Source: a virus
Length of the DNA: 46,085 bases
Direction: 5' to 3' (one strand)
IMG/VR virus record: IMGVR_UViG_3300037852_000040
Coordinates: 1 to 46,085 of that record
Part shown: positions 4,048 to 45,011 of the stretch, in pieces
Layout: every line of letters starts with the position of its first letter
Numbering within the stretch: position 1 is the first letter of the stretch
The notes under the pieces: model-generated
Told to the model about the DNA's origin: nothing
The model's database searches: none
What the model saw: the letters and a program-made list of their open reading frames with translations, nothing else
Made by a program: the position numbers and the translations under genes

Positions 4048-4062
4048 ACAGCAGGAAGAACT

Positions 4063-4546: not shown

Positions 4547-4710
4547 GCGATATGTCGGGAAACAATGGAGAAACAGAATGGGAATTAACTTAATCGGCTT
4601 AGGCCGCGATGTCGCACCTAAGATAGACACGAAAGCACGGGAGCTAGCACGCCTTCGGGATGCTCTTGAAAAAATTGCCCACGTTACGGGAGAAGATGAT
4701 CCTGCTATAT

Positions 4711-5110
4711 CATGCTTATCCGGTTGCCACACACAAACGCTTGAGAGGTACTAGATGTTGATCGAACGCCGAGGCTTGTTGACCGGGATCGTCGCAACTC
4801 TTTGCGCGCCTTCAATTGTGCGCGCGGGATCATTGATGCGGATCGCTGGCGAGCGGTATCGAATTTGGGGGTTTTCGTGTCCTTTGCTGCCGCCAGCGGA
4901 GGCGGCCTACAACAATCCGGCTTTATGGGACAAATATCTCGGGCCAACTCGCCGCCTTCAATTCGGAACATGGACGTTTTTCGGCAAAACCGGGAACGTC
5001 TATACCGACGACGTGATTGACTTTGCGAAGCAGGAATATCCGGATGCGCTCCCGTGGCCTGCGCATCAGGCACAAGATGTAGGGCTGTGTGTCTAAACCG
5101 GATAAGCATG
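4711..5110 (+). mobile_element. Mobile single-gene cassette, copy 1
   Basis: 400 bp bounded by perfect 15-bp inverted repeats CATGCTTATCCGGTT (4711-4725) and its reverse complement (5096-5110). The match resumes after three bases with ACACACA. It is flanked by a perfect 8-bp target duplication TGCTATAT (4703-4710 and 5111-5118). It has no transposase; the only cargo is the gene 4755-5096, whose start codon follows the shared left end. The left end differs slightly from copies 2 and 3 (CTTGAGAGGTACTAG instead of CTGAGACCTACTAG). The right end is identical to copy 2 over about 40 bp. It interrupts the gene at 4578. Confidence 0.9.
4755..5096 (+). CDS. Cassette cargo: Tat-signal-like exported protein
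   Basis: 113 residues. N-terminus MLIERRGLLTGIVATLCAPS then IVRAGSLM: a twin-arginine pair, hydrophobic stretch and possible cleavage after VRA, resembling a Tat signal. This type of RRGLLTG...RAGSLM start is familiar from small proteins in phages of rhizobia. The mature part is aromatic (RYRIWGFSCP, WTFFGKTGN). The ATG directly follows the TAG that ends the interrupted upstream gene, with GAGAGG as ribosome site, all inside the cassette left end. The TAA stop lies in the right end. Role unknown. Confidence 0.7.
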   Translation: MLIERRGLLTGIVATLCAPSIVRAGSLMRIAGERYRIWGFSCPLLPPAEAAYNNPALWDKYLGPTRRLQFGTWTFFGKTGNVYTDDVIDFAKQEYPDALPWPAHQAQDVGLCV

Positions 5111-5178
5111 TGCTATATTATGGCCGTGGGCTCAAAAGATTGCGCTGGAAGCACTCGACTAACAAGAGATATGTCGAA

Positions 5179-5433: not shown

Positions 5434-5445
5434 ACAAGAGTTAGC

Positions 5446-5679: not shown

Positions 5680-5707
5680 TAGACAAGTTAACACGCAGGA
5701 GCTTGGA

Positions 5708-32883: not shown

Positions 32884-33131
32884 GACAACGGGAGCCGCGC
32901 TCGCATCGGCATCTTCCCTACTAGGTCGCGGGCAGCGTCTAGAATGCCCTTGATTGCTAAGGCCGCTCTACTGCTTGAGCTATCCCGATTCATGTCAGCC
33001 TCACGTCGAATTAACGCACGGGTCAGCATCCTTGACCGGAAATACCCACCGAAGGCAACAGCGGCCGGAGGATGCTTTTCTTCACCGAGCCCCGTGCCGC
33101 CCGGCCGAAAGGCCCGCTGCGCCTTATCCAA
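32877..33131 (-). CDS. Hypothetical protein, start uncertain
   Basis: The longest form begins with TTG at 33131, overlapping the upstream stop by eight bases, but its AAGGGAG ribosome site is too close. A later ATG at 33029 would give a 50-residue product beginning MLTRALIRREADMN. Contains a basic helical C-terminus. Function unknown. Confidence 0.45.
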   Translation of the reverse strand: MDKAQRAFRPGGTGLGEEKHPPAAVAFGGYFRSRMLTRALIRREADMNRDSSSSRAALAIKGILDAARDLVGKMPMRARLPLSC

Positions 33132-33312
33132 CTCCCTTCAAAGCAAAATGAGGCTCGGTCAATTCACCGGATAGAAGCGGGTCAACTTCCGCAAGCAAAT
33201 TACCGTCGAGCGACCAATACTGGCGGATGCAGCGTATTGGATCACCTTCGATGCCCTTGCCGCGACGCAACAGTGTCGTCTCAACAACCTGGATGACCCT
33301 CACTTCCGCCAT
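33124..33312 (-). CDS. Small conserved phage protein, 62 aa
   Basis: ATG at 33312 with AAGGA upstream. RRGKGIEGDPIRCIRQYWSL then DGNLLAEVDP is a pattern shared with small proteins found in many podoviruses and siphoviruses. It is the first gene of the minus-strand late block and is divergent from the serine recombinase. Role unknown. Confidence 0.65.
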   Translation of the reverse strand: MAEVRVIQVVETTLLRRGKGIEGDPIRCIRQYWSLDGNLLAEVDPLLSGELTEPHFALKGVG

Positions 33313-33424
33313 GTGACCGTCCTTGACACGCAATCCATTGTATGACACGCTATCACAGACAGACAGGCAGCGCAATGGCTTTCAAAGCAGCCTGCCAAGC
33401 GAGCGCTCTCGTGAGGATAAAGCC
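33313..33424. promoter_or_regulatory. Divergent intergenic region (late block / recombinase)
   Basis: 112 bases between the first late minus-strand gene and the recombinase. It must hold promoters for both directions. On the plus strand TTGACA lies at 33323-33328 but no good -10 follows at 17 bases. On the minus strand TACAAT (33335-33340) is a fair -10 without a clear -35. The short palindrome GCTTTCAAAGC near 33383 could be a recombinase or regulator site. None of these is certain. Confidence 0.35.
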
Positions 33425-34096
33425 ATGAAAATCTCCACAGCGGTACCGTATATCAGAGTTAGCACTCAAAAGCAGGGCCGCTCCGGCCTCGGGCTCGAAG
33501 CCCAGCGCGAGCAGCTCGCCCGGTTTGCCGCGGCCGAGAACATCATCCTCACCGCGGAATACCTCGAAGTCGAGACCGGCAAGGGCTCAAACGCCATCGA
33601 CAAACGCCCGCAACTCAGGGCCGCCATCGCCGAGGCCAAGCGGCTCAATTGCCCGGTCGCAGTCGCCAAGCTCGATCGCTTGAGCCGCGACGTCCATTTC
33701 GTCTCCGGCCTCATGGTCCACAAAATCCCCTTCCTGGTCGCCGACCTCGGCGCCGATGTCGACCCGTTCGTCCTTCACCTGTACGCCGCCTTGGCCGAAA
33801 AAGAGCGCGCGCTGGTCTCGCAGCGCACCAAGGCCGCGCTCGCCGCCGCCAAGGCCCGCGGCACCACAAAGGACGGCCGGCCCCTCATCCTCGGCAATCC
33901 CGAACAGGCCGCAAAAAACCGCGCCAACGCCATGCTACGCGCCAAACTGTTGTTCGACCAGATGGACGCACTCAAAAACCTCTCGGCCAACCAAGCCGCC
34001 AAAAACCTCAATCTCGCCAACGTGCCAACCCCGACCGGGCGGCCGTGGTCGGCCAAAACCGTGATCCGCGTGCGAAACCGGCTGGCGGCGGCATGA
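33425..34096 (+). CDS. Serine recombinase (resolvase/invertase family)
   Basis: 223 residues from the ATG preceded by GAGGA; a longer upstream frame lacks a ribosome site. The catalytic domain shows YIRVSTQKQ with nucleophile Ser13, [10 protein letters not shown] at about residues 22-31, and AKLDRLSRD at 81-89. The C-terminal part ([20 protein letters not shown] and [12 protein letters not shown]) is the helix-turn-helix type of recombinase DNA-binding tail. It could resolve phage multimers, invert a segment, or integrate the phage; no large integrase is present. It overlaps the next gene by four bases (ATGA). Confidence 0.85.
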
Positions 34097-34674
34097 CCGT
34101 CAACCATTCCGCGCAACCCGGCCGCGCTCCGCTGTCCGAGCGCAACGACGACCTCTACGAGACGCCGCCGGAAGCCGTGCGGGCGTTGTTGGCGGTCGAG
34201 CAAATCCCCGCCGGCGCGATATGGGAACCGGCCTGCGGCCCCGGCGCCATCGTGCGCGTGCTGCGCGAAGCCGGCCACCGCGTCTATGCCACCGATCTCG
34301 TCGACTACGATTCACCAGACCAAGACACCGCGCGCGTCGACTTCTTGATCGAGCAGCAAGCACCAGACTTCCACATCGGCAGCATCATCACCAATCCGCC
34401 CTATAAGCTGGCCAGTCATTTTGTCCGTCATGCCCTGCTGCTGGCGCCGCGGGTAATCATGCTGCTGCGGCTCGCCTTCCTCGAAAGTGACCGGCGATCA
34501 TCCATTCTCGACGGCGGCCAACTCGCCCGCGTACACGTCTTTCGCAACCGGCTGCCGATGATGCACCGCGCCGGCTGGGACGGCCTACAAGCATCCTCGT
34601 CGATCGCTTTCGCATGGTTCGTCTGGGACCGCCTGCACAGCGGCCCAACGCAGCTCGACCGCATTTCATGGTGA
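34093..34674 (+). CDS. N6-adenine-type DNA methyltransferase-like protein
   Basis: 193 residues. [14 protein letters not shown] is followed by SAM-binding EPACGPGAI (45-53) and catalytic NPPY (101-104), ending with [12 protein letters not shown]. This is the compact phage methylase-like family in which the target-recognition part is minimal. Whether it is active or only binds SAM is unclear. Coupled to the recombinase, it is the second adenine methylase in the window beside the D12 enzyme at 808. Confidence 0.8.
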
Positions 34675-34687
34675 GGGAGGCCCAACC

Positions 34688-34879
34688 TTAATCCCCGCAG
34701 CCATGGCGGTTCGGCCGCAGAGGCCCAAGCCGCCGCGGCAACCGACCACCGGAATGCGCCTCCAATGACGCCCTGGCCTGCGCGCTCGTCATCCCGCGCC
34801 GAGCCGCCTCAACCTCGTCCGCAGCACACCGTTCCAGCATTTCCCGCTGCGCCTGCGATTTGACCTCGATAAGCTTCAT
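34688..34879 (-). CDS. Hypothetical protein, 63 aa
   Basis: The ATG at 34879 is preceded by GGGAGCGGG. Helical: MKLIEVKSQAQREMLERCAA then RRGMTSAQARASLEAHSG. It converges on the methylase gene with a 13-base gap. Upstream of it lie the parS-like palindrome and the IS. No family recognised. Confidence 0.5.
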   Translation of the reverse strand: MKLIEVKSQAQREMLERCAADEVEAARRGMTSAQARASLEAHSGGRLPRRLGPLRPNRHGCGD

Positions 34880-34927
34880 CGCACCCGCTCCCAAATGTTT
34901 TGCAGCCACAATATTTTTGCGCCGCAA

Positions 34928-34943
34928 CATTTCACGTGAAACA
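34928..34943. other. parS: parS-like palindrome, site 1 (degenerate)
   Basis: CATTTCACGTGAAACA differs from the ParB-binding parS consensus TGTTTCACGTGAAACA only at the first two bases. It lies directly before the IS1595-family element, whose 8-bp duplication AAACATTA takes in the right arm of the palindrome. Read on the other strand, the pre-insertion sequence contains TAATGTTTCACGTGAAA, identical over 17 bases to site 2 at 39658-39674. Confidence 0.6.
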
Positions 34944-35016
34944 TTAGGGAATTATATACTTGACTCCATTTCCGATTTGGGCTAGTTTTCGGGCATGAAT
35001 TGAGGGAAAAACGGCC

Positions 35017-35946
35017 ATGTCCAAGTCCACCATTTCGACGTTTGAACTGTTCGCCCTGATCCCCGATGCGGAGACGGCGCGGACCTATTTGGAGGCCCGC
35101 CTGTGGCCGAACGGGGCAACCTGCCCGGTCTGCGGCCTTGGCGAGCGGGTGACGGTTCGGAAGGGCAAGCCCGGCTTCTACCACTGCCAACAGTGCGCAG
35201 AGGACTTTACGGTGCGCACCGGCACGATATTCGAGCGCAGCCATGTCCCGCTGCACAAGTGGGTTTACGCGATGTACCTGCTCGTAACGGCCCGCAAGGG
35301 CATATCCAGCCTGCAACTCGCCAAGGAAATCGGCGTCACCCAAAAGTCGGCTTGGTTCATGTTGCAGCGGCTCCGCGAAGCCTGCGGAAAAGACCTGACT
35401 ATGCTTCAAGGGCTGGTCGAGGTTGATGAAACCTACGTGGGCGGCTTGGAGGCCAACAAGCACGAAGCCGACAAACTGCGCATGGGGCGCGGCCCGGTCG
35501 GCAAGCAGCCCGTTTTGGGCTTGCGGGAAAAGGGCAAAGGTGGTCGCGTCAAGGCGTTCAAGATCGACAGTACCGACGCGGGCACGATCACCGATGTCAT
35601 CGTTCAAAACGTGGCGGTCGGATCGACCCTGCACACTGACGAAGCCCAAGCCTACGGCGAGATCGGCGGCCTGTTCTTCGATCATGCGACGGTCAACCAC
35701 TCGGCTGGCGAATACGTCAAGGACGGCGTTTCGACCAATTCGATTGAGTCCGTTTTCGCGGTTTTGAAGCGCGGCCTGATCGGCGTCTACCATCACGCCA
35801 GCCCCAAGCATATCGGCCGCTACGTTGACGAATTTGCGTTCCGGTTGAACGAGGGCAACGTGGCCCGGCACACCCTGGAACGGCTGGACTCGTTCGTCAG
35901 TCGCGTTGCGGGCAAGCGGCTCACCTATAAGGCGCTGATCGCATGA
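35017..35946 (+). CDS. IS1595-family (ISXO2-like) transposase
   Basis: 309 residues. An N-terminal zinc ribbon CPVCG (36-40) with CQQC (57-60), a helix-turn-helix-like segment (SSLQLAKEIGVTQKSAWFML), then the DDE-type core with VEVDETYVGG (Asp137), LHTDEAQAY (Asp208) and NSIESVFAVLKRG (Asn241/Glu244). Full length for the family and without frameshift, so probably active. It could also act on the short element at 37796 that has the same ends. Confidence 0.93.
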   Translation: MSKSTISTFELFALIPDAETARTYLEARLWPNGATCPVCGLGERVTVRKGKPGFYHCQQCAEDFTVRTGTIFERSHVPLHKWVYAMYLLVTARKGISSLQLAKEIGVTQKSAWFMLQRLREACGKDLTMLQGLVEVDETYVGGLEANKHEADKLRMGRGPVGKQPVLGLREKGKGGRVKAFKIDSTDAGTITDVIVQNVAVGSTLHTDEAQAYGEIGGLFFDHATVNHSAGEYVKDGVSTNSIESVFAVLKRGLIGVYHHASPKHIGRYVDEFAFRLNEGNVARHTLERLDSFVSRVAGKRLTYKALIA

Positions 35947-36074
35947 GCGCGCCAGCGAAGCCCCCAGCGGCGTTAGACGCGATTGCGGACAAGGTTCTCC
36001 GCTACCGTCCCAAGCCCAAAACGAAACCAGCGAAAAGGCGCAAACGCCGTGCCCGCCTATTACAACGAGATTGA
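35943..36074 (+). CDS. Small basic IS passenger protein, 43 aa
   Basis: ATGA overlap with the transposase stop. Product MSAPAKPPAALDAIADKVLR then YRPKPKTKPAKRRKRR is strongly basic. Small ORFs with this SAPAK...YRPKPK pattern follow IS1595 transposases in other rhizobial elements I recall, so it is probably part of the element. It overlaps the start of the methylase. Confidence 0.5.
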   Translation: MSAPAKPPAALDAIADKVLRYRPKPKTKPAKRRKRRARLLQRD

Positions 36075-36921
36075 CCCCCATGCCGCACAGTGGCTCCGCA
36101 ATCTTATCTCCGCTGGTCACATTGCAGCGGGGGACGTTGACGAGCGATCTATCGTTGACGTGCGGCCCGACGACCTTGGCGGATACGAGCAAGCCCATTT
36201 CTTCGCCGGTATCGGCGGATGGTCCTACGCCTTGCGGCTCGCCGGATGGCCCGATGATCGATCGATCTGGACCGGCTCCTGTCCGTGTCAGCCGCTTTCG
36301 AGCGCGGGACAACGCAAGGGCCATGCCGACGAACGACACCTCTGGCCCGCTTTTTACCGCCTCATCGCCGAGTGCGCGCCTGCAATCGTCTTTGGAGAAC
36401 AGGTTGCGAGCAAGGATGGACGTGAATGGCTCGCCGGAGTTCGCGCTGACTTGGAAGCATTGGGATTTACCTGCGGGGCCGCCGATCTGTGCGCTGCGGG
36501 CGTCGGCGCGCCCCATATCCGTCAACGGCTCTATTGGGGTGCCGACGCCGGTAGTACCGAACGGTGGTCGCCGGCCGAAGGGCGGGGCGATGTCGCTCAA
36601 AGGCCAGACGCCAGACGGCAAAAAACGACAGGTCGATCTGGATTTCTTTGTCCGCCGAGCCTTGGCACACCCGACGCCGATGCACGGCGCACAGAACGAG
36701 GCGGCGCACAATGCGATGTCGGGCCAGTGGAAAACGGCCATTGGTCGGATGTCGAATGGGTCGCGGCTGGCGACGAAGGGCAGTTCCGCATTAAACCCGG
36801 CATATCCTTGCTGGCTCATGGGATTCCCGGACGTGTGGGACGGATTCGCGGGTACGGCAACGCGATTGTCCCGCAAGTCGCGTCCGAGTTCGTGAGCGCC
36901 TTCATGGAAAGTCGCCCTTGA
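36049..36921 (+). CDS. C5-cytosine DNA methyltransferase (IS passenger)
   Basis: 290 residues with GTG start preceded by AAAGG. It transfers a methyl group to C5 of cytosine. Motifs: HFFAGIGGW (50-58) for SAM, GSCPCQPLS (77-84) with catalytic Cys80, FGEQVASKDGREWLAGVRAD in place of the usual ENV region, AAGVGAPHIRQRLYW, and a C-terminal GYGNAIVPQVASEF. It lies inside the IS and ends 32 bases before its right end, so it moves with the element. The middle (target-recognition) region is short. A second frame over the same bases also looks protein-like. Confidence 0.85.
   Translation: MPAYYNEIDPHAAQWLRNLISAGHIAAGDVDERSIVDVRPDDLGGYEQAHFFAGIGGWSYALRLAGWPDDRSIWTGSCPCQPLSSAGQRKGHADERHLWPAFYRLIAECAPAIVFGEQVASKDGREWLAGVRADLEALGFTCGAADLCAAGVGAPHIRQRLYWGADAGSTERWSPAEGRGDVAQRPDARRQKTTGRSGFLCPPSLGTPDADARRTERGGAQCDVGPVENGHWSDVEWVAAGDEGQFRIKPGISLLAHGIPGRVGRIRGYGNAIVPQVASEFVSAFMESRP
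36071..36895 (+). CDS. Alternate-frame ORF over the methyltransferase (dual coding?)
   Basis: 274 codons open in another frame of the methylase gene. From about residue 95 it reads SGPLFTASSPSARLQSSLEN, GSPEFALTWKHWDLPAGPP and ICALRAS, then later NPAYPCWLMGFPDVWDGFAG. Segments of this kind appear in many annotated phage proteins of unknown function. Either both frames are used or database entries of this kind are shadows of the methylase gene. I favour the methylase as the real product. Confidence 0.25.
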   Translation: MTPMPHSGSAILSPLVTLQRGTLTSDLSLTCGPTTLADTSKPISSPVSADGPTPCGSPDGPMIDRSGPAPVRVSRFRARDNARAMPTNDTSGPLFTASSPSARLQSSLENRLRARMDVNGSPEFALTWKHWDLPAGPPICALRASARPISVNGSIGVPTPVVPNGGRRPKGGAMSLKGQTPDGKKRQVDLDFFVRRALAHPTPMHGAQNEAAHNAMSGQWKTAIGRMSNGSRLATKGSSALNPAYPCWLMGFPDVWDGFAGTATRLSRKSRPSS

Positions 36922-37041
36922 AATGAGCGAATGGACTCATGTATATAATTCCCAAACATTATAAGCCAGTCACAACTGCTCCACCCCGCCAAGTGATTGT
37001 AGCAGAAAATCTGTGTGCGGCAATTAGGAGCCGACGCAAAC

Positions 37042-37554
37042 TCACGGTTTTTCCCCCCGGTCGCCGCCAGCGAGCTCGACCGGGACGGTCGCGTCATGCT
37101 CTATCATGGGCGTTGTGACAGGCTGTCGCTCGACTGACTGTCCCGGCTGCACCACGTTGACGATGCGAATAGTCACGCCAGGCGTGGCGTTTGCTGCCGA
37201 TCCGCGCTGCTGGGCCGCATCCTCGGTGACAAACCACATGGCCGCGTCGAGCGCCGGCTTGTTCTCGGCTGCGTCGCGGATTGTCTTGATGCGCTTGATA
37301 CTTGCTGGCCCCTCGCTCGTTCGAAGTACCTGCATTTCACGTTTCAGGTATGCGACAACCGGTGGCTTGGCGAGCGCATAACGCATTGCCTGGGAAGTTA
37401 ATCCCACCTTTTGTGCTGCTTCATCGAATGGCAGTGCATCCCAGACCATGAGATCGACAGCGCGGCGGACTTTTGCAGTGAGGCCAGCGCGTTCGATGCG
37501 CGTGGTGGGCCGGTTGCTGATTGGCTTCTCGTTGAGGATTGCCGCGTCGGACAT
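37042..37554 (-). CDS. HTH protein, possible terminase small subunit
   Basis: 170 residues. ARTY-type N-terminus, then RRAVDLMVWDALPFDEAAQK VGLTSQAMRYALAKP, a helix-turn-helix, followed by YLKREMQVLRTSEGPASIKR and IKTIRDAAEN-type helices. This order (HTH, LR-SEGP, RI-IRDAAEN) is common in small terminase-like proteins of alphaproteobacterial phages and would recognise the packaging site. It is 5.4 kb away from terL, which leaves doubt. A transcriptional regulator is the alternative. Confidence 0.5.
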   Translation of the reverse strand: MSDAAILNEKPISNRPTTRIERAGLTAKVRRAVDLMVWDALPFDEAAQKVGLTSQAMRYALAKPPVVAYLKREMQVLRTSEGPASIKRIKTIRDAAENKPALDAAMWFVTEDAAQQRGSAANATPGVTIRIVNVVQPGQSVERQPVTTPMIEHDATVPVELAGGDRGEKP

Positions 37555-37795
37555 GCTGTTGGCTTCGCTGTCCTTGGCTATCGCCTGCGGACTGGTCCTC
37601 GTTCGGCTGATCGCCTCACTGCGGGTTGAAAAGAGGGCGGGCGCGATGCGTGACGCGCGATTGGATGCGTCATTTTTGGTTTATTCGGCAACGCACGGCG
37701 ACAAAACCGCATGAAATATGGGCTTTTGTGCTGTGTGAAATAGGTCAGCATTGCTGCTTGATCTCGGCGAGGGTTATTTGCCATATGCAAATTAT
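37555..37795. other. Gene-poor region upstream of the HTH gene
   Basis: 241 bases with no convincing gene. A minus-strand frame 37578-37784 (68 codons) is basic and low in information. AT-richer stretches near 37680-37795 could hold the promoter for the HTH gene on the minus strand and for 38087 on the plus strand. No clear -35/-10 pair seen. Confidence 0.4.
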
Positions 37796-38080
37796 GGGAA
37801 TTATATACTTGAGTCCCGAGGCGCCCAAATAGGAGGCAACAGTGAGCGAGCGAACGGTTTACCGGCACAAAAGGCGAGGCGCCATCTACGAGGTCTTGCA
37901 TGACAACGCATGCTTGGAGTGTTCCGCCGCGCCAGAGTTCGAAAAGATGTTCGATGAGGATCATTTCGTCGTTTATCGGAGCATTCACAGCGCGGCTGTC
38001 TACGTTCGGCCCTACCCGGAGTTTCACGATGGCCGTTTCGAAGCGATCCCCGATCCCAGGGACTCAAGTATATAATTCCC
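37796..38080 (+). mobile_element. Transposase-less IS1595-type cassette with one gene
   Basis: 285 bp with perfect 22-bp inverted ends (GGGAATTATATACTTGAG TCCC, 37796-37817, and its complement at 38059-38080). It is flanked by a perfect 8-bp duplication CAAATTAT (37788-37795 and 38081-38088). The ends match those of the IS at 34947 at 20 of 21 bases on the better side, so that transposase probably mobilises it in trans. It carries only the gene 37842-38075. The right duplication contains the first two bases of the ATG of the downstream gene at 38087. Confidence 0.92.
37842..38075 (+). CDS. DUF1653-like protein carried by the mini-element
   Basis: 77 residues, GTG start with AGGAGG at 37831-37836. 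TVYRHKRRGAIYEVLHDNAC, then DHFVVYRSIHSAAVYVRPYP and EFHDGRFEAI follow the layout of DUF1653-type and related small phage proteins (YRH-KGG-YEVL ... VVY ... VRP--EF-DGRFE). The stop codon lies inside the right inverted repeat, and the ribosome site inside the element, so the gene and its translation signals move as a unit. Function of the family is unknown. Confidence 0.75.
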   Translation: MSERTVYRHKRRGAIYEVLHDNACLECSAAPEFEKMFDEDHFVVYRSIHSAAVYVRPYPEFHDGRFEAIPDPRDSSI

Positions 38081-38086
38081 CAAATT

Positions 38087-38302
38087 ATGGTGCGCCCATG
38101 CCTAGACCCTGACGCGCGTCGTGTTGCGTTATCGTTGTTGGCGCGGGGTCTCGGCAGTCCTGGCGAGATTGCCGACTTGGCCGGCGTATCGCGGCAGGTT
38201 GTTGAGGGTTGGGCGCTGATTGCCGATATGGATTGGCGCCAGATCAAGCGCGCGAGATTGGCAAAGGCGTGGCGCAAGGAATGGGATCGTGTCCGGCCGT
38301 AA
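38087..38302 (+). CDS. Small helix-turn-helix protein, 71 aa
   Basis: ATG at 38087 begins in the right-hand duplication of the mini-element. LLARGLGSPGEIADLAGVSR QVVEGWAL is a helix-turn-helix, followed by a basic helix (RARLAKAWRKEWDRVR). Probably DNA-binding. The insertion has replaced its native upstream sequence, so its expression may be changed. The stop overlaps the next small gene by 14 bases. Confidence 0.6.
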   Translation: MVRPCLDPDARRVALSLLARGLGSPGEIADLAGVSRQVVEGWALIADMDWRQIKRARLAKAWRKEWDRVRP

Positions 38303-38426
38303 TTGGGCAAGAGCGCGCAAGTTGGCAGATGCTGAAAAGCCGCAAGAGGCTTGCGACATCGGCCTATTCAGCGATGACATGGATCAGGTCGAAATGTTCA
38401 TGGAGCCCACAAACGACATGCCGTGA
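38289..38426 (+). CDS. Small hypothetical protein, 45 aa (GTG start)
   Basis: GTG at 38289 with AAGGAA spaced eight bases. Product begins MSGRNWARARKLADAEKPQE and ends acidic. It overlaps the preceding gene and is followed by a strong hairpin. No family recognised. Confidence 0.45.
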   Translation: MSGRNWARARKLADAEKPQEACDIGLFSDDMDQVEMFMEPTNDMP

Positions 38427-38470
38427 CGCGGCTATGCCGCTTCCTTTGGCGGCACTGCGCCGGAACGGCA

Positions 38471-38944
38471 TCAGGCCGGCGAGACGCCAATCTCGCCGGC
38501 CGCTTTACGTCTTGCTTTGCCGCTGGCAAGCCCGGCTTTCCGAGCATGTGTTCTCTTCCTTTTCACCAAATCCCAGCGCTTTTTAGCACCATTTCGGCCT
38601 ATTTTCTGCATGTATCGACGGCTGAACTCGATTTTGATAGCGCCGCTATGCCGAACCTGGGAATTGTTGCGGCCGGCAAGCCGTGCTTCAACCGATGCGA
38701 ATGCTTCCTCGCTGTGCTGCAGCACGCCTTCGACGCCTAAGCCGCCGAGATACCAGAGCAGCGATTTCATCCCCACGCGCCGTTGGCCGCGCGATGAGAA
38801 TATCTTGGCGGAATATCCCTTCGGCGCGCCGGTGAGCTCGTCCAGCGCCTCAAACGAGATATTGCGCCGCTCCCGCCATGTATTGAGCGCCGCGCGCAGC
38901 CCGGCATAATCGTGCCAGGCGATCGGATCGGCATCGGCCGTCAA
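38471..38944 (-). CDS. XRE-like phage regulator
   Basis: 157 residues, TTG start overlapping the preceding stop. Residues 15-70 (LRAALNTWRERRNISFEALD, ELTGAPKGYSAKIF, GMKSLLWYLGGLGVE) form a five-helix XRE/lambda-repressor-type domain. The C-terminal half is strongly basic (RRYMQKIGRNGAKKRWDLVK then RKRTHARKAGLASGKARRK). It may be a repressor of the early plus-strand genes. The last codons also encode one arm of a hairpin. Confidence 0.65.
   Translation of the reverse strand: MTADADPIAWHDYAGLRAALNTWRERRNISFEALDELTGAPKGYSAKIFSSRGQRRVGMKSLLWYLGGLGVEGVLQHSEEAFASVEARLAGRNNSQVRHSGAIKIEFSRRYMQKIGRNGAKKRWDLVKRKRTHARKAGLASGKARRKAAGEIGVSPA
38474..38501 (+). terminator. Strong hairpin between convergent genes
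   Basis: Perfect 11-bp stem GGCCGGCGAGA / TCTCGCCGGCC with a six-base loop, followed on the plus strand by the T-rich GCTTTACGTCTTGCTTTGC. It lies just after the plus-strand small genes and overlaps the last codons of the convergent XRE-like gene. Likely a terminator for the plus-strand transcript. A second stem TGCCGC / GCGGCA at 38435-38454 precedes it. Confidence 0.5.
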
Positions 38945-39066
38945 TGGAAATACCGCCGCGGCGGCGGATCGAACGTATCGTCACCGCGGCTCGAGAACAC
39001 GCACGCCAGCCCGATTCCGCCCCAGACTGCGACCGCAAAGCCGACGATGTAATAAACCGCGCTCAA
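38941..39066 (-). CDS. Small membrane protein, 41 aa (TTG start)
   Basis: TTG at 39066 overlaps the stop of the upstream gene and its own stop overlaps the TTG of the next, both as TTGA. One transmembrane helix (VYYIVGFAVAVWGGIGLACV) and a polar tail with FDPPPRRYFH. Too short to match a family. It could be a small inner-membrane accessory or holin-like protein. Confidence 0.5.
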   Translation of the reverse strand: MSAVYYIVGFAVAVWGGIGLACVFSSRGDDTFDPPPRRYFH

Positions 39067-39248
39067 TGCACTGTCTCCGATTTGAGCACATACCACGGGC
39101 TATAGCGAAAAACCTCGCGGGCCGCCTCGCGAATGCGCCGGTCCGGCTCGTGGCCGAACACGTAGCGCAGATATTTGAAGCACGCCGCCTCGTAGCGCGA
39201 TTGGATGGTCTTGGGGCCAAGTGAGGACGATTTGCTGCCGTAGCTCAT
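39063..39248 (-). CDS. Hypothetical protein, 61 aa
   Basis: ATG at 39248 with GAGAGG twelve bases away. MSYGSKSSSLGPKTIQSRYE then AACFKYLRYVFGHEPDRRIR is helical and basic. Coupled to the small membrane gene. The cassette inserted at 39268 lies 19 bases upstream of its start and may have changed its expression. Function unknown. Confidence 0.55.
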   Translation of the reverse strand: MSYGSKSSSLGPKTIQSRYEAACFKYLRYVFGHEPDRRIREAAREVFRYSPWYVLKSETVH

Positions 39249-39267
39249 TGCCGCCTCTCTAATGTTT

Positions 39268-39657
39268 CATGCTTATCCGGTTTAGACACACAGCCCTACA
39301 TCTTGTGGTTATGTTTCGACGTTTGCACGCGGTTCATTAAATAATCTGCATGGATCATCTGGCCATTCCATGCGATCATGTAGGTTGCCGTGGCGGAAAG
39401 ACTCATAGTCTTCCTCGCCAGAGCCTATAGAGCGGCGCAACATTTCCGTACATCGCAGGCAAACCACGGTCTTGAGATTACGAGTTATGGCCAGATGACC
39501 ACACGCTAGCTCTACGATGCGTCGGGTCTGGTCTTTGCCGAGACGATCCCGATTAAAGCCAGTCGCTATAATGTCGGTTCGCACAATTCGTTCGGGTGGT
39601 GTTTGGATCAACATCTAGTAGGTCTCAGCGTTTGTGTGTGGCAACCGGATAAGCATG
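39268..39657 (-). mobile_element. Mobile single-gene cassette, copy 2 (inverted)
   Basis: 390 bp in reverse orientation, with 15-bp ends CATGCTTATCCGGTT at both termini and a perfect 8-bp target duplication TAATGTTT (39260-39267 and 39658-39665). The left (gene-start) end is identical to copy 3 over 50 bases; the right end is identical to copy 1 over about 40 bases. Cargo is one gene, 39309-39614, different from the cargo of the others. The target is the arm of a parS-like palindrome. Confidence 0.92.
39309..39614 (-). CDS. Cassette cargo: small Cys/His protein, 101 aa
   Basis: Begins MLIQTPPERIVRTDIIATGF; the first codons ATGTTGATC are shared with copy 1 cargo and the ATG follows TAG directly in the cassette end. 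RRIVELACGHLAITRNLKTV VCLRCTEMLRR contains a CGH and CxxC set of the type seen in small zinc-ribbon phage proteins. The C-terminal part is acidic/polar. Function unknown. Confidence 0.65.
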   Translation of the reverse strand: MLIQTPPERIVRTDIIATGFNRDRLGKDQTRRIVELACGHLAITRNLKTVVCLRCTEMLRRSIGSGEEDYESFRHGNLHDRMEWPDDPCRLFNEPRANVET

Positions 39658-39660
39658 TAA

Positions 39661-39676
39661 TGTTTCACGTGAAACA
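39661..39676. other. parS: parS-like palindrome, site 2 (perfect consensus)
   Basis: TGTTTCACGTGAAACA is an exact match to the 16-bp chromosomal parS site bound by ParB in many bacteria. It starts inside the right duplication of cassette copy 2 and ends two bases before the stop codon of the DUF1376 gene. No parA or parB gene is present, so a host ParB would have to bind it. A phage regulator that uses the same palindrome is the alternative. Confidence 0.7.
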
Positions 39677-39677
39677 C

Positions 39678-40181
39678 TCACGGCACCCAACCCTTCGCCC
39701 TCACAATCTCATCGAGGGAGGCAGATGGCGCAAGCGTTTTTTCTTGCTTTCTCGCTGGACCAGCGACCGTAGTTCTAGGCTCAGACTCTAAGGAAGATTC
39801 TATAGGTGATTGTGATTGTGTGTGCATTTGCCGAGCAATTGCCGGGTACGCACCCGTGAATTTTCTGTTTGTTCGTTCCGCACCCTTGAAGCCAGCAACG
39901 GCGCGCTTAGTGCTGATATCATTGGCCTTTTTTAATTCTTCCTCGATGCGTTTATGCTTCCATCCAGGCTGAAACATTCCGGCAATTGCCGAGCAATTGC
40001 TGCGCCACTGGTCACGGTTTAATCGCGAAATCCCGGCAATTGCCGCTTCGCTGTCCGGCAGCTTCCCGTGCTGCCAATAGTGCATGATAAGCAAAAGGTA
40101 GGCGCCGTGCTGAGCTGCCGTCAAATGCTGGGTGTCGGCCAGGTAATCGCCAATATAGAGCGGCATCCAAGCGCGGCTCAT
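39678..40181 (-). CDS. DUF1376 protein, possible replication/primosome factor
   Basis: 167 residues beginning MSRAWMPLYIGDYLADTQHL TAAQHGAYLLLIMHYWQHGK. This start is the defining block of DUF1376, a winged-helix-like domain of phage and prophage replication-region proteins. SRLNRDQWRSNCSAIAGMFQ and a basic tail follow. It probably helps load the host helicase or recognise an origin; the role is inferred from family context. It overlaps the HNH gene by four bases. Confidence 0.75.
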   Translation of the reverse strand: MSRAWMPLYIGDYLADTQHLTAAQHGAYLLLIMHYWQHGKLPDSEAAIAGISRLNRDQWRSNCSAIAGMFQPGWKHKRIEEELKKANDISTKRAVAGFKGAERTNRKFTGAYPAIARQMHTQSQSPIESSLESEPRTTVAGPARKQEKTLAPSASLDEIVRAKGWVP

Positions 40182-40615
40182 TCGGCGGCCTTGTTCGATG
40201 CAATCCACTCCGCCTCGATTTCCCGCCACAAGGCACGATAATCACGTGTCGCCTGTTGCCGGATCGGGCCATTTTCGCCGTTGATCTTGAGCCATCCTAG
40301 CTGTTGCAGCCGAAACCGCTTGGCCGGATCGATCGCATTGAGGATTTCGAGCTCGCGCGAGGGGGACCAGCGCCAGTCGGTCATGTCGCGGTTGCTCTTG
40401 CCGAGATTGCAGCGTCGACAAAGTACCTGAAGATTCGACCAGGCTAGCGAAAGCCGCGGAAAATGCGACCGCGGCTTGATATGGTCAACCTGTAGGGGAT
40501 TATCCGCATCGCCGCGGAAGCCGCAGCATTGGCAATAGCCATTGGCAAGCTTCAACGCCTTGTAGCGAGCCTTGAGCCATTCCGGGCTGTCGTAGAACGG
40601 ATCGCGGCGCTCCAT
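40178..40615 (-). CDS. HNH endonuclease
   Basis: 145 residues. YCQCCGFRGDADNPLQVDHI KPRSHFPRLSLAWSNLQVLC RRCNLGKSN is a classic HNH core with two CxxC zinc pairs. The C-terminal half is helical and charged. In the operon with GcrA-like and DUF1376 genes. It could be a packaging-associated HNH or a genome-editing/anti-competitor nuclease; position away from terL makes packaging less likely. Confidence 0.82.
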   Translation of the reverse strand: MERRDPFYDSPEWLKARYKALKLANGYCQCCGFRGDADNPLQVDHIKPRSHFPRLSLAWSNLQVLCRRCNLGKSNRDMTDWRWSPSRELEILNAIDPAKRFRLQQLGWLKINGENGPIRQQATRDYRALWREIEAEWIASNKAAE

Positions 40616-41121
40616 TACGACTCCCCGCGCGCTCGATATGCCATCTGGCAATGAAACCGGCAATACGGCACTGCATCATCTTTTGCTGCACCGCAATACA
40701 GCATGTCGCGGCCGGGCTCGCCGAGCGGCCATCGGCATGTGGTCGAGGTCAGCCCAAAAATATCCACCGCGCTCGCTGGCGTAGGGATGGCCGGTAGATC
40801 GGTTAGGCCGGGAGGCTGTGAGACGCCCAGCGCATGAAAGGCCATTCCCTGACCTTCCTGGCGCGATTGGCGGGGCTTCCTAGGGGTATTGAGCGTAATC
40901 CGCACATTGCCGATGCCATGCCGCAATTGCCGGGTTTTCCTTTTCACGATGACCCGTTTCGGCAACCCAAGCCTGATGATCTTGGCGACGACCGCGTTGC
41001 GGGTAATGCCGTCGCCGAGCTCGCGGGCTATCTCGCCGCCCGACATGCCGTCGCTGTGGCATTGCCGCAACACTTGCACGCGGGTCTCGGTCCAGAATGT
41101 GCCGGCGCCGGCGGGCATCAT
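40615..41121 (-). CDS. gcrA: GcrA-family transcription regulator
   Basis: 168 residues. The N-terminal WTETRVQVLRQCHSDGMSGG EIARELGDGITRNAVVAKII RLGLPKR is the GcrA DNA-binding helix-turn-helix; the C-terminal CRWPLGEPGRDMLYCGAAKD and YCRFHCQMAYR is its second conserved block. GcrA is a sigma70-associated cell-cycle activator in alphaproteobacteria whose targets are influenced by adenine methylation (GANTC). A phage copy may redirect host transcription. Stop-start TAATG overlap with the HNH gene and ATGA with the repressor. Confidence 0.9.
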   Translation of the reverse strand: MMPAGAGTFWTETRVQVLRQCHSDGMSGGEIARELGDGITRNAVVAKIIRLGLPKRVIVKRKTRQLRHGIGNVRITLNTPRKPRQSRQEGQGMAFHALGVSQPPGLTDLPAIPTPASAVDIFGLTSTTCRWPLGEPGRDMLYCGAAKDDAVPYCRFHCQMAYRARGES

Positions 41122-41333
41122 TCCGCCGCCTGTTGTCGTTGTCGGTGGGCAAATTCAAAGGCCATGTCGGCCAGCACCCGCTCGATCAGCTTAGGTGCCG
41201 ACCCCTTCTTGGGCGGCCCATGGTTTTCCCAATCGGTGTAAGTCGATCGGTCGACGCCAAATCTTCGGGCAAACACATCCTGGGTTTCGGCCATACGGCG
41301 CCTTGCGCGCCAAAGAGTGGTTGCTGTGACCAT
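41118..41333 (-). CDS. Small XRE-type repressor
   Basis: 71 residues. WRARRRMAETQDVFARRFGV DRSTYTDWENHGPPKKG is a compact helix-turn-helix of the Cro/CI type. The ATG at 41333 is six to seven bases downstream of a good sigma70 promoter (41340-41368), so its transcript may be leaderless. It is first gene of the minus-strand regulator operon and is divergent from the Bet operon, suggesting it controls that promoter region. Confidence 0.75.
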   Translation of the reverse strand: MVTATTLWRARRRMAETQDVFARRFGVDRSTYTDWENHGPPKKGSAPKLIERVLADMAFEFAHRQRQQAAE

Positions 41334-41339
41334 GGTGGC

Positions 41340-41368
41340 AGCATAAATATTTTTTGGTGCGAAGTCAA
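41340..41368 (-). promoter_or_regulatory. Sigma70-like promoter of the repressor operon
   Basis: On the minus strand TTGACT (41363-41368), 17-base spacer, TATGCT (41340-41345). The expected start lies at about 41333, which is the A of the repressor ATG. No ribosome site lies before that ATG, in line with leaderless translation. The spacer is AT-rich, and the divergent plus-strand genes begin at 41412, so repressor binding here could act on both sides. Confidence 0.6.
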
Positions 41369-41411
41369 CATTGGCGCTTGCATTATTTTGCGGATGTGGG
41401 AATATCACAAA

Positions 41412-41516
41412 ATGAGCCACGAGAGCGACGGTAGTCCGATCTTGGCCATCATCATGCCTGCGCTGTGGGCGCTGGCGATCGGGATTATCGCTTGGAGGCA
41501 ATGGCATGGCCGGTAG
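41412..41516 (+). CDS. Small membrane protein, 34 aa
   Basis: MSHESDGSPILAIIMPALWA then LAIGIIAWRQWHGR: one transmembrane helix. ATG at 41412; an ATG at 41394 would add six residues. It is the first gene of the rightward operon and overlaps the next gene by 11 bases. Membrane role unknown. Confidence 0.5.
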   Translation: MSHESDGSPILAIIMPALWALAIGIIAWRQWHGR

Positions 41517-41697
41517 CCTGCGCGACCAGCTTTGCGCCGCTCACACGCTGGCATGGCAGCAGCAGCGCCACGAGGACGAGATCGCTTTGCTCCGCGCTAT
41601 CGCCAAGATCGACGGCAAGCCGCTGCGGCACCATCGTGATACGCGCGACGATTTTCAAAAGGATTACGACGAGGAACAAGAAGGGACCTACCGATGA
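41506..41697 (+). CDS. Hypothetical protein, 63 aa
   Basis: Helical, charged: SLRDQLCAAHTLAWQQQRHE then DEIALLRAIAKIDGKPLRHH. It overlaps the previous stop and the next start (ATGA at 41694), so it is co-translated with Bet. No family recognised. Confidence 0.6.
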   Translation: MAGSLRDQLCAAHTLAWQQQRHEDEIALLRAIAKIDGKPLRHHRDTRDDFQKDYDEEQEGTYR

Positions 41698-42563
41698 ACG
41701 TGCCAGCCATCAAAACCGCAACCGCGGTTGCCTCCCACCCATTCAGTGCCGACCAGATCGACCTTATCAAGCGCACCATCTGTAAAGGCTCGACCGACGA
41801 CGAACTCCGGCTATTCCTATATCAGGCCGGCCGCACCGGGCTCGATCCGCTCGCTCGACAAATCTATTCGATCGAGCGGCGTGAATACCGCGACGGCCAA
41901 TGGGTCAAGGCGCGATCAATACAGACATCGATCGATGGTTTCCGCCTGATCGCCGAACGCAGTGGCAAGTACGCCGGCCAGGTCGGCCCGTATTGGTGCG
42001 GCGCCGACGGCCAATGGCAAGACGTATGGATCGCGCCGGAATCGCCGATCGCCGCCCGGGTTGGGGTGCTGCGCACCGATTTCAAGGAACCATGCTGGGG
42101 CGTGGCGCGCTTCGATGCCTACGCGCAAAAGACCAAGGACGGCGTTCCGACGCGCATGTGGAAAACCATGGGCGACGTTATGGTGGCGAAGTGCGCCGAA
42201 GCACTGGCGCTGCGCAAGGCATTTCCGCAAGAACTATCCGGTCTCTACACCGGCGATGAAATGATGCAGGCGGTCGAGGATTTCACACCGCCAGCGCCGA
42301 AGAAAACAATCGCCGAAGATTTGAACGATGAAATTCCGTTCGGTGGCGACACGCCGAAGGCCGCTCCTGCTCAAAGCCCCCCCAGCCCTCAGGCAGGAGC
42401 GGCCAGTGCGCCCGTCGATGTGCTGGCGATGGCGCGTGAGGCCGCAAGCCACGGCTTCGATATGCTGAACACCTACTACAAAACGCTCGGCAAGAAGGAT
42501 CAGAAAATTCTCAACGAGCATAAAGTTGAACTCGAAGCGCTGTTTCCGATCGATGCGGAATAG
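41694..42563 (+). CDS. bet: Phage recombination protein Bet (RecT-family annealase)
   Basis: 289 residues. The single-strand annealing protein of phage homologous recombination. FSADQIDLIKRTICKGSTDD ELRLFLYQAGRTGLDPLARQ IYSIERRE is the conserved start; TSIDGFRLIAERSGKYAG and GDVMVAKCAEALALRKAFPQ ELSGLYTGDEM follow in the family order. A Pro/Ala-rich linker (PKAAPAQSPPSPQAGAA) leads to a short C-terminal helix. No exonuclease partner is recognisable in the window. Bet-type proteins can recombine cassette ends of the kind seen here. Confidence 0.92.
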   Translation: MNVPAIKTATAVASHPFSADQIDLIKRTICKGSTDDELRLFLYQAGRTGLDPLARQIYSIERREYRDGQWVKARSIQTSIDGFRLIAERSGKYAGQVGPYWCGADGQWQDVWIAPESPIAARVGVLRTDFKEPCWGVARFDAYAQKTKDGVPTRMWKTMGDVMVAKCAEALALRKAFPQELSGLYTGDEMMQAVEDFTPPAPKKTIAEDLNDEIPFGGDTPKAAPAQSPPSPQAGAASAPVDVLAMAREAASHGFDMLNTYYKTLGKKDQKILNEHKVELEALFPIDAE

Positions 42564-42591: not shown

Positions 42592-43329
42592 ATGGCAGAA
42601 ATATCGGGAATTTCTTGGACAGACGCTACGTTCAATCCGTGGATTGGATGCACGCGCGTAAGCCCCGCGTGTGATCGTTGCTATGCGGCCCGTGACAATG
42701 AACGCTGGAATTGGGTGCCCGGCTGGGGCGCAGGCGTCGCTAGGCGCCGCACGTCGGTCCAGAACTGGAACAAGGTGCTCAAATGGAATCGCGAAGCAGC
42801 GGCTTCGGGAAGGCCGCTACGGGTGTTCTGTGCGTCGCTCGCCGACGTGTTTGATAACGAGATCGAGCAGGCGTGGCGCAACGACCTGTGGGACTTGCTT
42901 CGCGCTACGCCAAATCTGCGGTGGATACTTCTGACCAAGCGGATAGGCAACGCGCCGAAGATGCTACCCGCGTTCTGGCCCATGGCGCACGTCGGCTTGA
43001 TGTCCACCCTCGAAAATCAAGAGGTATGGGACCGGGATTATCACAAGCTCGAAGCCGTGCCGGCGGCTTGGCATGGGGTGTCCGCCGAACCGTTGCTCAG
43101 CCATATCGATATCGGCGACGCTAAGCCGGATTGGATCATCACGGGCGGTGAAAGCGGCCCCGGCTTCCGGCCCCTCGATATGGATGCCGTGCGCTCGCTT
43201 CGCGATCAATGCCGACGCAACGGCATCACTTTCCACCACAAGCAAAACGGCGGTATTCGCGGGAAGGATGCCGGCTGTTTGGTCGATGGTGTCGAGCATA
43301 AATATTTTCCGCCAGCGTTGGCGGCTTAG
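42592..43329 (+). CDS. DUF5131 / phage Gp37-Gp68 family protein
   Basis: 245 residues. SWTDATFNPWIGCTRVSPAC DRCYA is the characteristic start, with the CTRVSPACDRC cysteines; then CASLADVFDNEIEQAW, WILLTKR and DWIITGGESGPG, RPLDMDAVRSLRDQCR, FHHKQNGG in the expected order. The family has a TIM-barrel, radical-SAM-like layout, and a nucleic-acid-modifying role has been suspected but not shown. It lies two genes and a cassette from a true CxxxCxxC radical SAM-like gene. Confidence 0.88.
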   Translation: MAEISGISWTDATFNPWIGCTRVSPACDRCYAARDNERWNWVPGWGAGVARRRTSVQNWNKVLKWNREAAASGRPLRVFCASLADVFDNEIEQAWRNDLWDLLRATPNLRWILLTKRIGNAPKMLPAFWPMAHVGLMSTLENQEVWDRDYHKLEAVPAAWHGVSAEPLLSHIDIGDAKPDWIITGGESGPGFRPLDMDAVRSLRDQCRRNGITFHHKQNGGIRGKDAGCLVDGVEHKYFPPALAA

Positions 43330-43364
43330 GCACTATCAACAAGTATGTCGCCAACTTAGAGGTA
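43327..43364 (+). repeat. Direct repeat, copy 1 (38 bp)
   Basis: TAGGCACT, ten variable bases, then ATGTCGCCAACTTAGAGGTA. An identically spaced copy lies at 45943-45980. The first three bases are the stop codon of the DUF5131 gene. Both copies lie just upstream of a gene start (43375 and 45986). It could be a promoter or operator element, or the trace of a duplicated segment. Confidence 0.65.
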
Positions 43365-43374
43365 GGAGAACACC

Positions 43375-43797
43375 GTGAACAAGCGCAGACTTCTGAGGTT
43401 GGCCGATCTGCTCGACGCAGACGCCAAGAACGAGGCGGGTGTCAAATTTAATCTGAGCGGGTGGGGTAGTTCGTCTACAGGCGCCCCGGCTAATGTTTCC
43501 TGCGGCACCACGGCATGTGCGATGGGGCTGGCGGTACTAAGTGGCGCGTTCGAACAAGACGGCCTCAGAAACGGATTTGGGCCGCGCTCATGCTCGGTCA
43601 TTCCTTATTTTCAAACAGGGCAGAAAGTTGTGTCAGGCTTCAAGGCCGCGGCGAATCTGTTTGGCATTAGCCACAAGGCAGCCGAATGGCTCTTTCAAGA
43701 TGACCACTACCGCAAAAGCCAATGGACTGGTGCCGCAGGCGAACGCGCCGTGGCCCGCCGTATTCGCAAGTTCGTTGCTGGCGAAGCGCGACCGTAA
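43375..43797 (+). CDS. Conserved phage/plasmid hypothetical protein
   Basis: 140 residues, GTG start with AGGAG six bases before. RRLLRLADLLDADAKNEAGV KFNLSGWG, then VSCGTTACAMGLAVLSGAF, and AAEWLFQDDHYRKSQWTGAA GERAVARRIRKFVAGEA. This is a common family on rhizobial phages and plasmids, with a CGTTACAMG Cys motif and no known function. The cassette copy 3 follows 19 bases downstream. Confidence 0.75.
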   Translation: MNKRRLLRLADLLDADAKNEAGVKFNLSGWGSSSTGAPANVSCGTTACAMGLAVLSGAFEQDGLRNGFGPRSCSVIPYFQTGQKVVSGFKAAANLFGISHKAAEWLFQDDHYRKSQWTGAAGERAVARRIRKFVAGEARP

Positions 43798-43816
43798 GAC
43801 GGCGGCTGATACGGAA

Positions 43817-44260
43817 CATGCTTATCCGGTTGCCACACACAAACGCTGAGACCTACTAGATGTTGAAAACCCTCGTTTGGCCTGAGAAAAGCTATCAGTC
43901 GCTCGACCAAGGCATCCGATTTGCAGTGCGCGTTCTTCACGCGGCCGGGTTTGAAACCTGCCAGTCATGCCAGGGCGGTAAAGGGCACGCCTACAGCGAC
44001 CCTACGGTTGATCTGAGAGCGGAAGCTGACGACGCCCGTGGTTTTGGAGCGCTCGCGGCGCTGCGAACCTACGGGCTTCCCATCGCGGAGGTAGCCATCG
44101 TTTGGCCTGTGCGGAACGGCTGCCCCTACGAGAAACTTTGGCGCATCACATTCAGCAAAACAATGGAAGATCGCGCCGATGAGAAGCCGAGTTTTGTTTT
44201 CGGGTATGCCGCAACATGACCGCAAGATATGGGGCTGTGTGTCTAAACCGGATAAGCATG
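43817..44260 (+). mobile_element. Mobile single-gene cassette, copy 3
   Basis: 444 bp with perfect 15-bp inverted ends CATGCTTATCCGGTT (43817-43831 and 44246-44260). The left end matches copy 2 over 50 bases; the right end is slightly diverged (CGCAAGATATGGGGC). Flanks ATACGGAA and GTTAGCAG do not match, so there is no target duplication. It may be old, or have arrived by recombination between cassette ends. Cargo is gene 43860-44219. The flanks GGCTGATACGGAA and GTTAGCAGGGAGATT resemble the contiguous sequence at 109-137. Confidence 0.88.
43860..44219 (+). CDS. Cassette cargo: phage-type hypothetical protein, 119 aa
   Basis: Starts MLKTLVWPEKSYQSLDQGIR; ATG directly after TAG within the shared cassette end. 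RFAVRVLHAAGFETCQSCQG GKGHAYSDPTVDL and GLPIAEVAIVWPVRNGCPYE KLWRITF belong to a phage family in which FESCQGG-GH-YPEPTV is followed by a WPV block. Function unknown. It is a third, unrelated cargo type, showing that the cassette ends carry different genes. Confidence 0.75.
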   Translation: MLKTLVWPEKSYQSLDQGIRFAVRVLHAAGFETCQSCQGGKGHAYSDPTVDLRAEADDARGFGALAALRTYGLPIAEVAIVWPVRNGCPYEKLWRITFSKTMEDRADEKPSFVFGYAAT

Positions 44261-44278
44261 GTTAGCAGGGAGATTAAA

Positions 44279-44983
44279 ATGGGTTGCGATATTCACCTTT
44301 ACGTCGAGCATCGAAATGGCCAAGGTTGGGAAAGCTGCGACGTATGGGAGAAAAGCGAATACGAGCCGCACGAATTGACTGTGCCATACGGCAAGCATTT
44401 TTATAGCGACCGCTCCTATGATACCTTTGCAATCTTGGCAGATGTGCGCAACGGCTATGGCTTTGCGGGGACCGATACCGGAGACGGTTTTGTTCCGATT
44501 GCCGAGCCTCGCGGCTTACCCGACGATATGTCCCCACAACTCGCGGCAGAAGCCGCCGCGTTTTTGGAGCACACCCCATCGTGGCTAACAGCCAAAGAAT
44601 TGATGGAGTATGACTGGACTCGCACCACAACAAAACGCGGATGGATCAGCGGCCCGCAATACGCCCATTGGATCAGATACCAGCGCGAGGATGGCGATGG
44701 GCCGAGAGAATGGTGCGGCGGAATCGGCGGCGGCGGTATTGAGCATATCGCGGAAGCGGAAATGGCGGAGCGCGTTGCCGCCGTTCAAGAACTGTTCAAG
44801 GGAGCAAACTACAAAGACTTGGAGCAGGCGTTGAAGGATCGGCTTGGCTCGACGTACTGCCAAGTATCCTGGCAAATTCCTTACTATCGAGCGGCGTCCG
44901 GTTTTCTTAGCCGCGTCATGCCTCGCTTGTGGCGCTTGGGAAAGCCGGACGATGTGCGGATTGTCTTTTGGTTCGACAGCTAG
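44279..44983 (+). CDS. Conserved phage hypothetical protein (MGCDIHLYVE family)
   Basis: 234 residues, ATG with GGGAG six bases before. MGCDIHLYVEHRNGQGWESC, then YDTFAILADVRNGYGFAGTD and GLPDDMSPQLAAEAAAFLEH TPSWLTAKEL in order define a widespread phage/prophage family without known function. The MGCDIH opening with Cys, Asp and His hints at a metal site. Separated from cassette 3 by 18 bases that include its ribosome site. Confidence 0.78.
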   Translation: MGCDIHLYVEHRNGQGWESCDVWEKSEYEPHELTVPYGKHFYSDRSYDTFAILADVRNGYGFAGTDTGDGFVPIAEPRGLPDDMSPQLAAEAAAFLEHTPSWLTAKELMEYDWTRTTTKRGWISGPQYAHWIRYQREDGDGPREWCGGIGGGGIEHIAEAEMAERVAAVQELFKGANYKDLEQALKDRLGSTYCQVSWQIPYYRAASGFLSRVMPRLWRLGKPDDVRIVFWFDS

Positions 44984-45011
44984 AGCCGACTTACACGGGG
45001 TTAGCGCCTAG

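Follow-up and report, generated by a model that had tools for sequence, protein, structure and literature searches.

A putative IS1595-family mobile insertion cassette with a DUF1653-like gene in a tailed phage, and one-gene cassettes with related ends among viral contigs

How does a tailed phage come to carry a single small gene tightly enclosed between the inverted ends of an insertion sequence, with no transposase between them and a complete element with nearly the same ends in its vicinity? The question arises from a segment of 285 bp within the window analysed here, which is a whole virus record of 46,085 bases in which a terminase, a head-tail adaptor and a tail protein of a tailed phage can be recognised. 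An earlier, sequence-only reading of this DNA had described the segment as a transposase-less mini-element of IS1595 type carrying one DUF1653-like gene.

Anatomy of the 285-bp element and its complete neighbour

The features of the element and its borders, as read from the sequence, are the following.

37788..37795: left copy of the 8-bp target duplication, CAAATTAT
37796-38080: the putatively mobile cassette, 285 bp
37796..37817, + strand: left terminal inverted repeat, 22 bp, GGGAATTATATACTTGAGTCCC
37831..37836, + strand: ribosome-binding site AGGAGG, 5 nt upstream of the GTG
37842..38075, + strand: cargo gene, DUF1653-like, 77 aa, GTG start
38059..38080, - strand: right terminal inverted repeat, 22 bp, GGGACTCAAGTATATAATTCCC, containing the TAA of the cargo gene
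38081..38088: right copy of the target duplication, CAAATTAT

The two repeats are perfect inverted copies of each other over 22 bp and the 8-bp duplication is equally perfect, so that the boundaries originally proposed for the element are correct to the base. The same applies to the description of its content as one gene with its own AGGAGG and a stop inside the end: the 77-aa frame makes 82% of the element coding, and its TAA (38073-38075) lies within the right repeat, with the consequence that the codons of the last residues of the protein, RDSSI, lie in the repeat or straddle its edge. The final two bases of the right duplication copy are also the first two of the ATG of an ORF at 38087-38302. 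No match to a sigma-70 promoter was found within or close to the 285 bp, and tblastn with the IS1595 transposases of the survey presented below detected no transposase remnant in them, in agreement with the element having been called transposase-less. Allowing up to three mismatches, we find four occurrences of the 21-bp end motif in the window and 0 in its dinucleotide shuffles. A generic scan for an inverted repeat plus duplication returns only four elements from the window, and three shuffles yield none. A chance origin of the ends is ruled out by these shuffles and by the scrambled-end controls of the survey.

The complete element nearby has three features.

34947..36953, + strand: complete element of the IS1595 family that includes a passenger gene; duplication AAACATTA; a possible helper
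35017..35946, + strand: intact IS1595 transposase, 309 aa, with zinc ribbon and DDE domain
35983..36921, + strand: passenger C5 DNA methyltransferase (PHROG 363, 1e-80)

Both Pfam (3e-43) and NCBIfam (1.8e-56, over the cut-off) identify the transposase as IS1595, which gives the full element the DDE_Tnp_IS1595 domain defining the family, and its duplication is of 8 bp. At either end, one base in 21 distinguishes it from the cassette, and 842 bp separate its right end from the cassette; the initial assignment to IS1595, as well as the proposed match with a full IS starting at 34947 and lying about 0.8 kb away, are thereby borne out. As a side observation, the methyltransferase frame overlaps another at 36071-36895 (PHROG 1008, 2.5e-15), both matching families named 'DNA methyltransferase', and a comparable second long frame is present in another viral cassette (L096); overprinting and an annotation artefact of the PHROG families are both possible.

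The cassette ends start with GGG (GGGAATTATATAC) and are bordered by 8 bp of duplication, as expected for IS1595. Flanking inverted ends that belong to an IS family, no transposase between them, a single gene for something other than a transposase and a duplication of the same length as that of the neighbouring IS are the properties of a mobile insertion cassette (MIC). Since DDE_Tnp_IS1595 is missing from it, the element is a derivative and not an IS; since it contains a conserved gene, it does not have the absence of coding capacity that defines a MITE, although it resembles MITEs in being short and transposase-less, with inverted ends and a target duplication. On its sequence, therefore, it is best called an IS1595-family MIC, presumably moved in trans.

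How does such an element compare with known systems? IS231 belongs to the IS4 family, so that IS231-MIC231 is of another IS family than the 285-bp cassette. Integron gene cassettes are likewise compact mobile units with a single gene each and with cargo that can be exchanged; the element of the window differs from them in having ends of DDE-transposase type and an 8-bp duplication, so that it works in a cassette-like manner without being a member of that class. The likeness is closest with the MICs exemplified by IS231-MIC231 of Bacillus cereus (De Palmenaer et al. 2004), presented in PMC3129680 as transposase-less IS derivatives with passenger genes: IS ends surround a non-transposase gene, no transposase is present and movement in trans is expected. 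The MIC papers retrieved in our search deal with bacterial chromosomes and plasmids, often with resistance genes, whereas our element resides in a phage, measures 285 bp in total and takes the stop codon of its gene from its own inverted repeat. Transporter IS (tIS) of the IS1595 family, such as tISCpe8 and MTnSag1 (Siguier et al. 2009), have passenger genes, inverted ends of about 25 bp and 8-bp duplications according to PMC5704250. They share the transposase family, and the full element at 34947-36953 is one such element; in contrast to the cassette, however, tIS carry a transposase, and those that PMC5704250 describes sit in bacterial genomes and not in phages. MICs and tIS being known already, the 285-bp element taken alone is a modest new member. 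In the literature searched we found no published description of such cassettes in phages, even if a mention in the 2009 IS1595 paper or the 2014 IS review is possible.

The cargo gene and how it may have come between the ends

The name DUF1653-like, given to the gene from its sequence, stands through its relatives rather than through the protein itself. Searched against Pfam, the 77-aa protein gives nothing at E<=1 and thus stays short of the PF07866 cut-off, whereas seven of the eight members of an alignment combining it with phage homologues do match DUF1653 (PF07866), the best with 3.6e-8. A profile search of viral contigs returned 80 loci, two of which are the window phage itself and 78 further viral relatives. 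In an alignment of 50 sequences, the protein plus 49 homologues, nine residues are invariant and the 77-aa protein possesses all nine. Its AlphaFold2 model (pLDDT 93.5) consists mostly of five strands, with two short helices; fold searches give a weak SH3-like signal with no clear relative (best Foldseek E 0.48, to a VapX antitoxin; VIA-align Z up to 5.4), and a sequence profile search for solved structures among its relatives returned none. The cargo is a real, conserved small domain between IS1595 ends, and on the predicted structure it is a divergent DUF1653-like domain of SH3 type. With a small SH3-like barrel as its predicted fold, the protein is probably a binding module rather than an enzyme. 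In one relative (L008) the domain is fused behind what we take, from reading its sequence, to be a MazG-type region.

These findings bear upon the idea that the element is a MITE-like, non-coding derivative in which the ORF is accidental. Its size is within the MITE range, and an antisense ORF of 88 aa also fits inside it; nevertheless, the 49 aligned homologues, the retained invariant residues, the strong ribosome site, the confidently modelled fold and the coding share of 82% render an accidental frame extremely improbable.

From where, then, was the gene obtained? Its nearest relatives (L282-L288; 44-57% identity) are ORFs of phages with no IS1595 ends close to them, and the gene appears to have been captured from the phage gene pool. 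In one viral contig, an IS1595 element whose transposase has suffered an internal deletion is inserted within a DUF1653-like phage gene (L036 8342-9784, equivalent to L298); having a duplication of its own, that insertion is an independent event, and its phage was rejected as the source of the capture.

We consider it quite probable that the element is an IS1595 MIC in which a DUF1653-like phage gene, captured between the ends, is moved in trans as part of a larger population of phage cassettes. In such a course of events, an ordinary phage gene would be captured between two ends recognised by the transposase; the capture would fuse its 3' end to the right inverted repeat, which would then supply the stop, while its own ribosome site would be retained. 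An IS1595 transposase, most simply supplied by the intact neighbour within this phage, would bind the cassette at its two ends and either excise or copy it, inserting it, as may be presumed by analogy with the family, by an 8-bp staggered cut. The cassette would be of some benefit to the phage.

Alternatively, the element could be an internal deletion derivative of a parent IS1595 element that had both a transposase and the DUF1653-like gene and lost the former. Such pairs do exist: a Dam cassette of 532 bp (L215) and a full element (L263) have the same gene, with 82% protein identity and 73% DNA identity, and broken transposases occur in several elements of the survey. However, the DUF1653 profile, run over all stop-to-stop frames of the surveyed loci, found no element with this gene other than the 285-bp cassette, so that the IS parent with the same gene beside its transposase, which was the finding that would have spoken against the original interpretation, has not emerged from those loci. 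The absence of a transposase remnant in the 285 bp also argues against this origin, as do the residues encoded by the right repeat, which place the 3' junction at the gene itself. Among other members of the survey, sets of cassettes combine shared ends with different cargo. Hence, we regard the deletion of a parent as unlikely.

Another possibility is that the ends are remnants of a dead element and that the gene has become a resident of the phage genome. The identical 285 bp occur at the identical site in two other IMG/VR contigs. One, of 98,428 bp, matches the window at 100% identity and in the same order over positions 3700-6200, 33000-42000 and 43200-45000; the other, of 4.2 kb, has the same site and is identical across the 480 bp compared. 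The three sequences appear to represent one phage population, and consequently these contigs provide neither an independent copy of the cassette nor an empty site. A second copy at another site was not found among the IMG/VR viral contigs, the only contigs found to contain its neighbouring gene seem to come from this one phage and hence offer no empty site, and a search by protein of the bacterial genome collection returned no copy. The lack of a second or an empty site would suit a relic. Against it, the perfect ends and perfect duplication indicate an insertion that is recent or maintained, and an intact transposase of the same family resides in the same phage, so that we find a relic rather improbable.

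Elements with IS1595 ends in viral and bacterial sequences

The preferred reading, namely a mobile cassette with a captured gene, places the element within a population, which a search for the same ends in viral contigs with a listing of their cargo, as had been suggested for the element, has brought to light. Viral contigs contain at least 118 stretches with the end pattern GGGAATTATATACNTGASTCC; the bacterial genome collection has 73, many of which belong to a single metagenome-assembled genome. Two further end variants returned 73 and 10 viral stretches that overlap in part with those of the first scan. Defining an element by inverted ends (at most nine mismatches for both together) and a perfect 8-bp duplication, we obtained 124 distinct elements, against none in three scrambled-end controls. 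When one nested pair is excluded, 87 of them have a viral copy and count as viral. By profile, a transposase gene is absent from 46 of the 87, four of the 46 retaining short transposase fragments. Target duplications are 82% A+T and the surrounding DNA is 57% G+C.

Are transposase-less elements a viral speciality? When the comparison is restricted to the same end pattern and one over-represented genome is removed, transposase-less elements of 250-1250 bp account for 15 of 48 viral elements and none of 21 bacterial ones (p = 0.003), while the overall transposase-less share does not differ significantly (17/48 vs 4/21, p = 0.26). The uncorrected comparison, 46/87 vs 4/36, mixes several patterns and was discarded as unusable. 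Only five of 38 cassette-bearing viral records, many of which are fragments, contain an IS1595 transposase over the cut-off, which indicates that a helper is not as a rule present in cis.

Cassettes resembling that of the window occupy different sites, as is clear from two cassettes of 1069 bp with a D12 methyltransferase (L084 and L091) that lie in sites with different duplications. In addition, the cassette L266 interrupts a gene of which L092, L105 and L032 have uninterrupted versions. The starts of the cassettes gave no match in named phages, searched for both end families, or in plasmids, searched for the first family only. On the bacterial side, one metagenome-assembled genome of uncultured Gammaproteobacteria (CATOTD01, L126-L196) has about 15 similar IS1595 elements of 1.45 kb in different sites, each with a passenger of 100-113 aa, the one tested matching HSDR_N_2 weakly.

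DNA-modification cargo and a shared chassis

Among viral cassettes with a longest ORF of at least 140 aa, genes for DNA modification predominate: 18 of 26 have a DNA methyltransferase (N6/N4, C5, D12 or Dam) or a member of the Mom family. Seventeen of these were assigned by Pfam, counting L091 as a close twin of L084, and the eighteenth, L254, by its similarity to other cassette methyltransferases and by NCBIfam; two suggestive cases, one with a QueD-like gene (L018) and one with only an NPPF motif (L238), were left out, and L253 matches MT-A70 with an ORF below the 140-aa limit. In a blastp control, none of 120 flanking ORFs of similar size matched the 16 cassette DNA-modification enzymes of the panel, giving a Fisher p of 3e-17, or of 2e-13 on the assumption that four methyltransferases among the flanking ORFs escaped detection; this panel was drawn from the cassettes themselves and therefore biases the comparison somewhat toward them. 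A Pfam tally of flanking ORFs has no DNA methyltransferase family among the families listed, 25 of 53.

Other cargo includes the gene of a TnpB RNA-guided nuclease between IS1595 ends in a viral contig (L243, 2001-3178) and a helix-turn-helix protein (L095). Many short cassettes encode proteins of 70-105 aa of unknown function, and one small protein family, with the motif MHYxNGREAKNGDKV, is the cargo of four viral cassettes (L208, L226, L239 and L219, the latter at 1624-1911).

Cargo that marks DNA would help a virus to pass the restriction defences of bacteria, and the most likely interpretation is that one-gene cassettes spread anti-restriction genes between phages. To our knowledge, how the orphan methyltransferases of phages move is not settled. 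According to PMC7468147, such genes are among the most variable of the phage pan-genome and the most frequent known genes in the variable islands of cryoconite phages; its account of these islands, in the passages that deal with them, offers no transposition mechanism, and the cassettes described here would be one. One-gene, transposase-less cassettes, having exact boundaries, perfect duplications and mostly DNA-modification cargo when the gene reaches 140 aa, constitute a concrete and testable vehicle, and for this reason the population of phage cassettes deserves attention more than the 285-bp element alone. Because cassette boundaries are exact, unknown cargo such as the DUF1653-like gene can be listed directly as candidate counter-defence genes. 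This gene itself may be one for host takeover or counter-defence spread by cassettes, a weak link of guilt by association drawn only from the cargo that accompanies it in other cassettes.

How is the cargo fitted to the ends? In 22 of the 46 transposase-less cassettes, the stop of the longest ORF is no more than 22 bp from the element end and is mostly the TAA of the repeat. L204 and L250 also have the start codon inside the left repeat, so that their gene spans from repeat to repeat. Some cassettes with unrelated genes have in common a near-identical start of 41-49 nt that includes the start codon. For example, a closely similar start of 41 nt, comprising end, leader and ATG, and a common right end are found in six cassettes (two of L049, plus L084, L091, L096 and L106) with D12, C5 or N6/N4 methyltransferases or Mom, in six different target sites.

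The window itself contains a second set of this kind, with different ends.

4711..5110, + strand: second-family cassette, 400 bp, duplication TGCTATAT, one ORF of 113 aa (4755-5096)
39268..39657, - strand: second-family cassette, 390 bp, duplication TAATGTTT, one ORF of 101 aa (39309-39614)
43817..44260, + strand: second-family cassette, 444 bp, without matching duplication, one ORF of 119 aa

Together with two cassettes from other contigs (L014 and L112), these three have the ends CATGCTTATCCGGTT and almost identical first 40-odd nt, the same ATG position in four of the five and about 40 nt in common at the finish; the five encoded proteins have no visible similarity. No transposase for these ends was seen in the window. 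An autonomous element elsewhere (L360) has CATGCTTATCCGGTT ends and an IS1595-type transposase (2e-37), and consequently the proposal that the window holds two independent families does not survive at the family level.

From their sequences, the shared chassis are read as cargo exchange within a fixed pair of ends, for which recombination between the common ends would be the simplest route. A more general scheme, which we advance only tentatively, is that phages share a system of IS1595-end cassettes having a fixed chassis (a start of about 41-49 nt and a finish of about 20-40 nt, often with the stop) and interchangeable single genes, the cargo being swapped probably by recombination of the ends and the whole being moved by a helper transposase. 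The main job of such a system could be the spreading of genes for DNA modification and counter-defence, and the DUF1653-like protein could be one counter-defence factor among them. Cassettes may also lie side by side: in L219, two of them (477-1081 and 1090-1956) are arranged in tandem, with the duplication CTATATTG before, between and after them.
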